A program made the translations under genes and the position numbers. The notes below the pieces were generated by a model, which worked only from the letters and a program-made list of their open reading frames with translations, was not told the DNA's origin and made no database searches. Shown in pieces: positions 11,556 to 59,445 of a stretch of DNA of 64,000 bases. Each line of letters opens with the position of its first letter. Position 1 is the stretch's first letter. The stretch is from Halorubrum lacusprofundi ATCC 49239 (GTDB lineage Archaea; Halobacteriota; Halobacteria; Halobacteriales; Haloferacaceae), in assembly GCF_000022205.1 (NCBI RefSeq), contig NC_012029.1:1550001-1614000 (forward strand), given 5' to 3'.

Positions 11556-11625
11556 GTGGACGAAAGACGTGTTGGCGAGTTTGACTGGAGTTCTGACGTG
11601 ACTTCTTACTGAACCCCAGCCGCTC

Positions 11626-12020
11626 GCTTATAGGTTGTTGACTGAAGATCGACGGTGAACTCCTCCAAAGCCCCAGCCGCGAGGACTCGCGCACCTCGCT
11701 GCGGTCCTCAGTCACTCGCGTTGCTCGCTTCCTGCGGTCCTTGCGTCGGTGTGCTTCGTCCTCGCGGCAGGGCGAGAGCAAAGCTCTCGCTTGCAACCGG
11801 CGCATAGCGCCGGTAACAGCGAGGCGCTTCGCGCCTCTGGCAGCCGGCGGCAAAGCCACCGGCGACTGCCCCTTTGAGTCCCACCCTGCACCGCAACCGC
11901 ACCCCATACCTCCCCAGCCTCGCGGCTCGCGCTCTCCGAGCGCTCACCGCGTTCCTCGCACGCGCTCCTCACGCCCGTCGGGCGTTCGCAGGCGCGCGCC
12001 ACCGCACATGTTTTAAAAAG
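11626..12020. repeat. Roughly 400-bp non-coding repeat element, copy A
   Basis: The space between the DUF418 gene and the FAH gene is not random. It opens with TTATAG and GTTGTTGACTGA. It contains in order the anchors TCCAAAGCCCCAGCCG, GACTGCCCCTTTGAGTCCCA, CCTCCCCAGCCTCG and GCGCGCCACCGCAC, and ends in an AT run TTTTAAAAAGCG. Copy B at 27770 has matching anchors in the same order with the same spacing style. Apparent ORFs inside it are composition artefacts. Confidence 0.8.
11772..11863. repeat. Array of four triloop hairpins inside copy A
   Basis: Four short perfect or near-perfect hairpins with three-base loops follow one another: 11772-11790 (stem GCGAGAGC, loop AAA), 11796-11814 (ACCGGCGC, loop ATA), 11821-11837 (GAGGCGC, loop TTC) and 11843-11863 (GCCGGCGGC, loop AAA, one mismatch). 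The spacers are five to six bases (TTGCA, AACAGC, TGGCA). The same architecture recurs at 28011 and inside the gene at 58975. Confidence 0.85.
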
Positions 12021-12029
12021 CGTTCTCGG

Positions 12030-12749
12030 TTACTCTCCCTCGACGATCGGGTTCGACAGCGTTCCGACGCCCTCGTAGGTGATTTCGACGCGTTCGCCGG
12101 GCTCGACGAGCCCCGGGTTCGCCGGGCTCCCGAAGGCGATGCAGTCGCCGGGCTCGAAGGTGAACCGCTTCGAGAGGTACGAGACGATCTCGTGCGGGCC
12201 GAACAGCATCAGTTTGGTGTTGGCGTCCTGCCGCTGCTCCCCGCCGACGGTCGTCGAGATATCGAGGCTCGTCGGGTCCACGTCGGTCTCGATCCACGGA
12301 CCGAGCGGACCGGAGCCGTCGAATGCCTTACGCGCGGTCCGGCCCTGCTGGTCGAGCGCGTCCATGTCGTTCATAATGGTGTACCCGCGGACAATCTCGG
12401 GTACGTCCGCGGGCTCGACATCGCGACACCGCTCGTCGATGACGGCGACCAGCTCGCCGGCGTAGGTCAGCTCGTCAGTCCACTCGGGATACCGAATCGG
12501 CTCGCCGTGCGCGAGCAGACTCGCAGGCGGCTTGATAAAGAAGTCCGGCTCCTCGGGGCGCTCGTACTCCATCTGATCGAGCGTCTCCGCGTAGTTCCGG
12601 CCGACGCAGTAGAGCGCGCCCGGATCGCAGGGCGGCAGGAGCCGTCCGTCGCGGCCGACCTCGTACCGGCCGTCGTCGGCGACGATGACTCCGTCCTCGT
12701 AGCGTCCCGAAACCGGTCCGTCCGGCGTGAGCAGGCGAGCGAGTCGCAT
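12030..12749 (-). CDS. Fumarylacetoacetate hydrolase family protein
   Basis: A 239-residue FAH-superfamily enzyme that would cleave or hydrate a beta-diketo or 2-oxo-enoate acid in catabolism of aromatic or sugar-derived acids. The metal-binding signature is present: YCVGRNYAETL near residue 47, then KPPASLLAHGEPI, TDELTYAGELVAVI (metal-binding Glu residues), GYTIMNDMDALDQQ and the late CIAFGSPANPGLVEPGERVEI. Length fits the short bacterial/archaeal acylpyruvase-like members. It is downstream of the MoaD-like operon on the same strand, with a 54-base gap. Exact substrate is unknown. Confidence 0.92.
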   Translation of the reverse strand: MRLARLLTPDGPVSGRYEDGVIVADDGRYEVGRDGRLLPPCDPGALYCVGRNYAETLDQMEYERPEEPDFFIKPPASLLAHGEPIRYPEWTDELTYAGELVAVIDERCRDVEPADVPEIVRGYTIMNDMDALDQQGRTARKAFDGSGPLGPWIETDVDPTSLDISTTVGGEQRQDANTKLMLFGPHEIVSYLSKRFTFEPGDCIAFGSPANPGLVEPGERVEITYEGVGTLSNPIVEGE

Positions 12750-27637: not shown

Positions 27638-27769
27638 GCAGTGTTACTGGGTGACAATGTCGAACTCGTGGCTGTTTGTCGACAGGAACTGTCAGATATA
27701 TGTTGAGAGTACGCGATTCGGGTTGACTGAGAGTTTGTTTATAAATCGGAGCGAGGTGTCGCTGTTTGC
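27638..27769. other. Short AT-rich gap after the helicase
   Basis: Nothing coding. The stretch is less GC-rich than the surroundings and includes TTTATAAATCGG near 27739, another instance of the TTATAA box that accompanies the repeat element starting at 27770. Confidence 0.4.
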
Positions 27770-28010
27770 CATTTATAAACTATTGACGAGTCTGAGGTGA
27801 CGATCTCTAAAGCCAGCCGGGAGGACGGCGCACGCTCGCTGTGCTCCTCGTTCAGTCGCTGCCGCTCCTTCGCTGCGGTGCTTACATCGCCTGCGCCGTC
27901 CTCCCGGCTGCCCCTTTAACTCCCACCCCACCCCGCACAGCACCGCCGGAAGACGATCCTGCTCGCTTCGCTGCGCGGGCTGCGACTTCCGTTCTCCCGC
28001 TCGTTGCATC

Positions 28011-28053
28011 GCCGGCGCTTCGCGCCGGCTGCAAGAGGGACCGCCGGTCCCTC
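28011..28053. repeat. Two triloop hairpins inside copy B
   Basis: 28011-28029 (stem GCCGGCGC, loop TTC) and 28035-28053 (stem GAGGGACC, loop GCC) are perfect eight-pair hairpins with three-base loops. They are separated by the five-base spacer TGCAA and match the style of the array at 11772. Confidence 0.85.
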
Positions 28054-28092
28054 ACTGCTCGCGGGACCGCAGCCTCACGCCTCCCCAGCCTC

Positions 28093-28122
28093 GTCGGCCG
28101 GCGCTTTTAAGCGCCGGCCGAC
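28093..28122. repeat. Twelve-pair perfect hairpin in copy B
   Basis: GTCGGCCGGCGC at 28093-28104 and its exact complement at 28111-28122 flank a TTTTAA loop. It would form a very stable stem in RNA or cruciform DNA. No T-tract follows, so an ordinary terminator is not obvious. Confidence 0.8.
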
Positions 28123-28311
28123 TCCCTCGCGCGTGCAACTCGCAGCCTGACGGCTGCTCGTCGGCACGCGCCACCACACCGCTCATTTATAAGCGATCAT
28201 CAATACTGACCTGCAAGAAGCACTCCTACAATCGATTACCGCTGTTCCGGTGTTGGCCACATACGCGCCGGAACGCGGCAGTCGTCGACTCCCTCGATGG
28301 GTCCGGTCCGT

Positions 28312-30596: not shown

Positions 30597-30670
30597 GCCA
30601 GGGGAGCATGGGCGGTTCATGCACTCGACTTGTAATCGAGACTTCCGGGGTTCAAATCCCTGCCCTGGCT
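30597..30670 (+). tRNA. tRNA-Thr (anticodon TGT)
   Basis: The acceptor GCCAGGG pairs with CCCTGGC, the discriminator is T, and no CCA is encoded. The D arm is GCAT...ATGC. The anticodon stem CTCGA/TCGAG encloses CTTGTAA, giving TGT for ACA codons. The T arm is CGGGG-TTCAAAT-CCCTG with one wobble. 74 nt with no intron. No strong TATA is visible upstream. Confidence 0.95.
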
Positions 30671-58370: not shown

Positions 58371-58994
58371 ATGCGCCAGTTCGTCGTCATCGGCCACGAC
58401 GTGCCCACCGATCCGGACGCGATCTCGCTGTCGGACATCCCCGGTGCGGGCCGGCTCGACCTCCTCTGCCGGTGTGTCGCCGCCGGCGTGTTCCTCTCGC
58501 ACGGGATCCGCGAGCGCGTCCGAGTCCACCTCGTCGTCGCCGACGAGTTTACGGTCACCTTCGACGCCGACAGCCTCCGGCACCTCCACCCCGACGAGCG
58601 CAACGTCGCCGCGCGGATCCGGGACGCGCTCGACGCGCAGGACGACGCCATCGGGCACATGCCCGCCGACGTTTCGCCCGGCGTCGAACTCCGGCGGATG
58701 GGACTGGAAGCGACCCTCGACCGGGTGCTCGACACTCCCGGTACCTCCAGCGCGTCTGCCGACCCAACCCTTGTCCAGCTTCACGAGGACGGCGATCCCC
58801 TCGTCGACGCCGCGCCGCCGACCGACCCCGTGTTCGTGCTCTCCGACCACAACGATTTCGCCCCCGCCGAGCGCGACCTGCTCGCGGACCGTGCGGAGCG
58901 CCGCGTACGCGTCGGTCCCGAGCTACTCCATGCCGACCACACCGTCTCTGTCGTCCACAACTGGCTCGACACCGATGGCTACGAGTCCTACTGA
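58371..58994 (+). CDS. trmY: tRNA (pseudouridine54-N1)-methyltransferase TrmY
   Basis: SPOUT-family enzyme that methylates pseudouridine 54 in tRNA T loops, 207 residues. MRQFVVIGHDVPTDPDAISLSDIPGAGRLDLLCRCV is the characteristic TrmY beginning. The trefoil-knot SAM site is in DPVFVLSDHNDFAPAERDLL and the C-terminal LLHADHTVSVVHNWLDTDGYE. ATG 58371; a longer frame from 58329 adds only leader-like residues. Its last 20 bases overlap the CHY zinc-protein gene. Confidence 0.94.
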   Translation: MRQFVVIGHDVPTDPDAISLSDIPGAGRLDLLCRCVAAGVFLSHGIRERVRVHLVVADEFTVTFDADSLRHLHPDERNVAARIRDALDAQDDAIGHMPADVSPGVELRRMGLEATLDRVLDTPGTSSASADPTLVQLHEDGDPLVDAAPPTDPVFVLSDHNDFAPAERDLLADRAERRVRVGPELLHADHTVSVVHNWLDTDGYESY

Positions 58995-59445
58995 CGACCG
59001 GCGCACGACGACCGCGCCCGCGACTGACGACCGGTTCGCGGTCCCGCTCCGGGGCGTCGCCGTCGACCCCGAGACGCGCTGTGCCCACTGGGACGACCCC
59101 GTCGACGTGGTCGCGCTCCGGTTCGGTTGCTGTGAGGCGTATTACCCCTGTGACGCGTGCCACGACGCCGCGACCGACCACGAGGCCGAGCCGTGGCCCC
59201 GTGACCGGTTCGACGAGCCGGCGGTGCTGTGCGGCGTTTGCGGGGCGACGCTCACCGCCCGCGAGTACCTCGACGGCGACGGAAAGGCGCAACGTGCCTC
59301 TGGCAGCGAGGGACAGAGTCCCTCGGGCAACCGGGCTTCGCCCGGTGACAGCCAGGGGAAGCCCGACGACGACGCCTGTCCCCGGTGTGACGCCGCGTTC
59401 AACCCCGGCTGCCGGGCGCATCGCGACCGGTACTTCGAGGCGTGA
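58975..59445 (+). CDS. CHY zinc-finger protein with a repeat-derived insertion
   Basis: A 156-residue CHY-type zinc protein. GVAVDPETRCAHWDDPVDVVALRFGCCEAYYPCDACHDAATDHEAEPWP carries the C-x-H, CC, CxxCH and H residues of the family. VLCGVCGATLTAREYLD and CPRCDAAFNPGCRAHRDRYF complete the site. The ATG at 58975 lies inside trmY. Between those Cys pairs lies a roughly 30-residue Gly/Ser/Pro segment (residues about 104-133) whose DNA is an array of triloop hairpins like those in the intergenic repeat elements, apparently inserted in frame. Function of CHY proteins is unclear; some are thought to bind redox proteins. Confidence 0.88.
   Translation: MATSPTDDRRTTTAPATDDRFAVPLRGVAVDPETRCAHWDDPVDVVALRFGCCEAYYPCDACHDAATDHEAEPWPRDRFDEPAVLCGVCGATLTAREYLDGDGKAQRASGSEGQSPSGNRASPGDSQGKPDDDACPRCDAAFNPGCRAHRDRYFEA
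59285..59346 (+). repeat. Triloop hairpin array inside the CHY gene
   Basis: Hairpins at 59285-59299 (AGGCGC/GTGCCT, loop AAC), 59307-59325 (CGAGGGAC/GTCCCTCG, loop AGA) and 59330-59346 (ACCGGGC/GCCCGGT, loop TTC). They are separated by CTGGCAG and GGCA and followed by GACAGC. The spacer and hairpin style is the same as at 11772-11863. Confidence 0.8.

Follow-up and report, generated by a model that had tools for sequence, protein, structure and literature searches.

Hairpin arrays of Halorubrum lacusprofundi as probable copies of a short, non-autonomous mobile palindromic element of haloarchaea

In a stretch of 64,000 nucleotides of Halorubrum lacusprofundi DNA (the window), which lies inside a 2,735,295-bp replicon of the 3.69-Mb genome, four consecutive triloop hairpins occupy positions 11772 to 11863, and the question that they raise is whether such an array is a product of chance, a feature of RNA, or a module that multiplies and, if the last, by what means. 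The first three hairpins have perfect stems of 8, 8, and 7 pairs with the loops AAA, ATA, and TTC, the fourth has 8 pairs, including one mismatch, around the loop AAA, and the spacers between them are TTGCA, AACAGC, and TGGCA. Two 8-bp hairpins with the loops TTC and GCC and the spacer TGCAA lie at 28011 to 28053. An earlier note on this DNA had described both clusters and had named their frequency in shuffled sequence as the decisive comparison. We carried out this comparison for triloop hairpins with stems of at least 7 bp and gaps of 3 to 7 nt, with dinucleotide-preserving shuffles of the window as the null model, and the observation stands at both places: the window has 4 adjacent pairs, whereas the shuffles average 0.01 and never exceed 1 (n = 600). 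A third hairpin-pair site, at 59304 to 59349, had been overlooked. Single triloop hairpins exceed their number in shuffles only mildly (21 versus 11.5, approximately 2-fold), indicating that the signal lies in the hairpins coming paired and not in the hairpin itself. When folded as single-stranded DNA, the region from 11769 to 11866 has a z score of −5.1, and 0 of 200 shuffles are equally stable. The mild excess of single hairpins is what chance palindromes of a GC-rich genome might give, but the number of adjacent pairs and the presence of homologous copies in the hundreds refute that explanation.

Hairpin pairs collected from ~1 Mb of Halorubrum DNA yield a consensus cassette of 45 to 51 bp, which recurs with defined ends: CAG, hairpin 1, T(G/T)GCA, hairpin 2, and GA, followed by C. 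Both hairpins share the same orientation and thus have a direct-repeat geometry, each being preceded by CAG or GCA(G). Positions 11768 to 11865 are two such cassettes arranged head to tail in tandem (Table 1). The proposal of the earlier note that the array is modular is therefore retained, but the module is this two-hairpin cassette with defined ends rather than a single hairpin. Likewise, the unit had been thought to be defined by structure and spacer; structure does define it, but sequence does so as well, because a few stem types recur across Halorubrum species, often at the identical position of the host element described below, with variable loops. Pairing had also been said to persist while stem sequences differ, and this is borne out by the stem alignments, in which 100% of the cells are paired and 28 are double-change cells, against 9.1 in shuffles.

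We represented the cassette by a covariance model of 46 columns (R1; threshold, E ≤ 1e-3), which matches cassette 2 of the array at 11817 to 11866 (E = 3.7e-18); inserts 94 to 100% identical to cassette 2 are found elsewhere in the source genome. The stem type of the inverted cassette is present in 39 of 51 Halorubrum species. With ~48 covariance-model matches at E < 1e-3 in the source genome, where genome-wide counts are drawn from searches and stretches, the cassette is a high-copy element with two hairpins per unit, and none of these matches is a split (autonomous) copy whose two hairpins are separated by a gene.

Loops of the GNA or TNC type are found in 173 of 237 hairpins in pairs, compared with 104 of 404 lone triloop hairpins, and both forms occur on the same stems. 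The sequence GCGAAGC is a classical, very stable DNA mini-hairpin, and the loop preference hints that the hairpins might act as DNA. At the 3′ flank of the cassette, a C is nearly constant (159 of 178 copies), and no conserved target tetranucleotide is found 5′ of the insertion in the same 178 copies. The motif GACG (the reverse of CGTC) stands at the end in only 63 of 178 copies, making a CGTC tag inconsistent, and GTAG is absent from the aligned cassette ends. Unlike MITEs and SMRs, the cassette has no terminal inverted repeats, its ends being CAG... and ...GA. We also considered a target duplication of GAC, which is unsupported since it fits coding sites only and is incompatible with intergenic ones, and an unusual openness in all six reading frames, which was dismissed as a special property (47 of 139, compared with 38 of 139 after shuffling).

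Table 1. Cassettes and associated features in the window
Feature	Coordinates	Strand	Length	Composition and remarks
Cassette 1	11768..11816	+	49 bp	CAG-GGCGAGAGC/AAA/GCTCTCGC-TTGCA-ACCGGCGC/ATA/GCGCCGGT-AA; stems and junction type recur in other copies
Cassette 2	11817..11865	+	49 bp	CAGC-GAGGCGC/TTC/GCGCCTC-TGGCA-GCCGGCGGC/AAA/GCCaCCGGC-GA; directly 5′ of CTGCCCCTTTGAGTCCC
Single inverted cassette	28008..28057	-		CAGT-GAGGGACC/GGC/GGTCCCTC-TTGCA-GCCGGCGC/GAA/GCGCCGGC-GA; R1 E 2.4e-13
Cassette in coding gene	59304..59348	+	45 bp	CAGCGAGGGAC/AGA/GTCCCTCGGGCAACCGGGC/TTC/GCCCGGTGA; R1 E 2.9e-24; in frame
Outer older cassette, left half	59281..59303	+		GGAAAGGCGCAACGTGCCTCTGG; partly decayed; intact in orthologues L304, L306, and L308
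Outer older cassette, right half	59349..59369	+		CAGCCAGGGGAAGCCCGACGA; intact GTCGGGC/GAA/GCCCGAC in L304, L306, and L308
CHY zinc-finger protein gene (PF05495)	58975..59445	+		Carries in-frame inserts; Pfam zf-CHY E 7e-12
Host intergenic element	11611..12030	+		Cassettes between positions 11767 and 11866
Host intergenic element, second copy	27737..28200	+		Contains the inverted cassette

The cassettes of the first two sites lie within an intergenic host element composed of tandem 54- to 57-bp units with TTTATAAG, a long stem around AAAGCCCCAGCCG...CGGCTGCCCCTTTGAGTCCC, then CCTCCCCAGCCTCG, and then more hairpins. This Halorubrum-specific element stands at no fewer than 56 chromosomal positions; 48 of 52 Halorubrum species have it, with up to 184 pattern matches per genome (0 for the reversed control pattern), and nearly all of the matches listed fall in Halorubrum. 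Double compensatory changes are seen in 28 of its 42 predicted pairs (28 insert-free copies). Since most copies are without an array, and since the span across the insertion site peaks at ~105 bp with further groups at ~155 and ~205 bp (i.e., quantized at about +50 and +100), the array is an insert of whole ~50-bp units. The earlier suggestion that the array grows as a modular repeat agrees with this result, one to three units being present at one site across species in insert steps of ~50 bp. Beyond that suggestion, the array is probably a mobile insertion, which occurs in frame in coding genes too. Two variants of the host element were also observed. At one locus (L049; G000:C2:466223-466412), approximately five tandem 54-bp units (TTTATAAG...CCAAAGCCCCAGCCG) lie upstream of the element, compared with one to three elsewhere; at another (L170:4802-5038), the inner domain of the long stem is inverted between otherwise normal stem arms.

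Both window copies of the host element lie between convergent ORFs. This location and the strong covarying structure of the element would be consistent with hairpins that function at the RNA level, as terminators, stability elements, or structured RNA, the array then being a variable domain of a Halorubrum RNA. We regard this as quite improbable, as the cassettes also occur within coding genes, outside the host element, and in other genera, and as the hairpins match no Rfam family (Rfam 15 searched over the window gave nothing above the gathering score except a tRNA at 30597 to 30670). For an intrinsic terminator in particular, the T-run 3′ of the hairpins is absent, and copies are found inside genes.

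The third site of the window lies within the reading frame of a zinc-finger gene with genus-wide orthologues, one of which is annotated as "CHY zinc finger protein," and its 45-bp cassette lies nested within the spacer of an outer, older cassette (Table 1). Between anchors in the orthologues, the site measures 73 to 76 bp when empty, 118 to 124 bp with one cassette, 163 bp with two, and 205 to 208 bp with three, so that inserts of about +42 to 45, +87, and +132 bp are present in combinations that differ between orthologues. A gene encoding a DUF7095 protein provides a second set of empty and filled orthologous sites: by a by-eye count from the alignment, the site is empty in 15 of 29 aligned Halorubrum species and carries an in-frame insert at the same point in the other 14, usually of 45 bp, and of greater length in nested or repeated cases. 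Other Halorubrum genes with in-frame cassettes encode a 5-formyl-THF cyclo-ligase, a PIN-domain protein, and a histidine kinase; one more, recognized as a helicase by reading its sequence rather than by a profile, has two separate cassettes, and another, for an esterase, has the cassette in inverted orientation. Beyond this genus, cassettes without internal stops are found in genes annotated as MerA (Natrinema zhouii and Salinigranum rubrum), aconitate hydratase (Halobacterium sp. DL1), CobN (Natronococcus occultus), and an alkaline-phosphatase-family protein (Halolamina). Each in-gene copy adds ~15 amino acids, and a PDB search with the cassette peptide gave no match.

The reading frame is kept in these hosts, and lengths divisible by 3 account for 55 of 57 cassettes in the coding-locus set (54 being exactly 45 bp), compared with 34 of the 106 cassettes that neighbor the intergenic element, most being 49 bp there; the predominance of 45 bp in genes is partly biased because the coding-locus set was found in part with R1, which was itself built from 45-bp copies. 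As a separate observation, a cassette-bearing aconitase reading frame is shared by the C1 contig of the source genome (G000:C1:298830; L385) and a plasmid of Halobacterium sp. DL1 (L443; CP007061.1), which suggests gene exchange between genera.

The cassette is spread through the order: R1 had matches in 211 of the 243 Halobacteriales genomes, in 69 of the 78 genera (best E, 3.5e-24), with per-genome counts being lower bounds since ~25 candidates were scored per genome. In a phylum-wide sample, 30 of 33 genomes inside Halobacteriales had matches, while 7 genomes outside it had 1 or 2 weak ones each (E of 1e-6 to 9e-4). Phage records gave no cassette match, and IMG/VR gave none to one exact cassette pattern.

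We consider it likely that each cassette in the arrays is one copy of a haloarchaeal mobile palindromic element, non-autonomous and consisting of two direct triloop hairpins in 45 to 51 bp. Such a cassette would insert precisely, without recognizable target duplication, into intergenic elements and coding genes, where a 45-bp insertion would keep the reading frame of the host gene. It would also insert beside other copies (tandem) and into their spacers (nested), and by these two routes the arrays would grow. The two hairpins may be recognized, as single-stranded DNA, by an enzyme that is provided in trans (HUH/Y1-like or other); that they serve as a handle for such an enzyme is what we infer from the parallel with REP and IS200/IS605 elements. 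Our searches found no enzyme for cassette movement, and no movement was observed within one species.

Resident IS200/IS605 elements were rejected as the parent on the basis of their ends (TTGACATCCTCCCC... and ...GGAGGATGTCAC, from the source genome's elements only), which are unlike the cassette ends. Of 51 Halorubrum genomes, 10 have no Y1_Tnp, and among these are G018 and G001, in which cassettes or host elements are plentiful; hence, the presence of Y1 was set aside as a correlate, being not required. Among 38 Y1 loci, no Y1 gene is flanked by standard cassettes. A related two-hairpin insert was seen at 4 of the 38, all of the IS605 type and from different Halorubrum species (L361, L366, L368, and L353), where it lies near the end or the transposase gene as an insert and not as the terminus. 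These data bear on the possibility that the cassettes are terminal-only PATEs, that is, IS605-type remnants reduced to two near-terminal palindromes and moved by IS200/IS605 TnpA. Terminal-only PATEs of 52 bp are described for Haloquadratum (PMC3119063), and the cassette matches them in size, in its two palindromes, and in having neither terminal inverted repeats nor target duplication; moreover, most Halorubrum have Y1 transposases, and the inserts of the four IS605 elements do lie near their ends. We nevertheless find this unlikely in view of the differing ends of resident IS605 elements, the placement of those inserts near rather than at the terminus, and the cassette-rich genomes without Y1_Tnp.

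A serious rival to enzyme-driven movement involves no transposase at all: through replication errors, single strands that form hairpins at the fork would switch template at CAG/GAC microhomology and so be copied to other places, and the arrays would grow by slippage or by unequal recombination between copies. Several cassette-rich genomes are without Y1 transposases, a conserved target site is absent, and every tandem and nested junction falls at CAG/GAC repeats, as this mechanism would have it; switching at inverted repeats would also yield both the GNA and TNC loops on the same stems and the inverted inner domain between the stem arms of L170. However, the cassette ends are precise and identical in distant genera, and the gene targets are unrelated, with almost no homology, which would be hard to achieve by microhomology alone. 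We therefore hold template switching to be possible but not probable.

A mobile cassette of this kind is small enough for exact tracking, and the order includes laboratory model species. It would allow a direct test of the movement of hairpin elements that have no transposase and of the way in which new peptides enter conserved proteins. In haloarchaeal proteins, a segment such as SEGxSPSGSRTQSGDD would be an insertion and not a conserved loop, which has a bearing on alignment, annotation, and structure work. Our search of open-access papers turned up no account of such an element for haloarchaea. The chances seem to us evenly balanced that the cassettes are previously undescribed, order-wide protein-coding micro-transposons, with no terminal repeats or target duplications and with machinery other than a Y1 transposase, that have seeded in-frame peptides in many conserved proteins.

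The cassette behaves much as several known palindromic elements do, but no cognate transposase was found for it. Among the repeats of Haloquadratum (PMC3119063), SMR-A elements resemble it as small, transposase-free repeats that prefer sites inside other repeats, but they are ~110 bp long and have inverted terminal repeats, which the cassette does not. The PATEs share with it the features listed above and are also often nested in other mobile elements; they differ in that their ends match IS605-type ends, whereas the cassette ends are unlike those of resident IS605 elements (in the source genome's set), and the protein-coding nature described here for the cassette does not figure in the passages on PATEs that were consulted. 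Repeats of the REP/BIME GTAG and CGTC families are hairpin units that are often paired and sometimes intragenic in frame or inside larger palindromes; REPs are thought to be non-autonomous, GTAG REPs being moved by RAYT (Y1) transposases, and the survey reporting this does not mention haloarchaea (PMC3733652). The cassette, too, is a high-copy unit, with two hairpins in each copy, but it has no GTAG/CGTC tag, its geometry is that of a direct repeat, and a dedicated Y1 (RAYT) gene was not found. The array stands nearer to the class of REPs and Rickettsia palindromes than the earlier note had placed it, although it does not have the tag of that class. Protein-coding palindromic repeats have also been reported for Wolbachia and Methanocaldococcus jannaschii (cited in PMC2996958). 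The Rickettsia palindromic elements are short mobile palindromes that, like the cassette, lie between genes and in frame in unrelated housekeeping genes and add a short peptide. In-frame insertion into conserved genes with absence from orthologues is seen for the cassette as well, a likeness of behavior alone. The cassette would be the haloarchaeal counterpart of these elements with a far wider range, covering most genera of the order, and is set apart from them by its two separate direct triloop hairpins, its length of 45 to 51 bp with ~15 residues added, and its distribution over a whole archaeal order.
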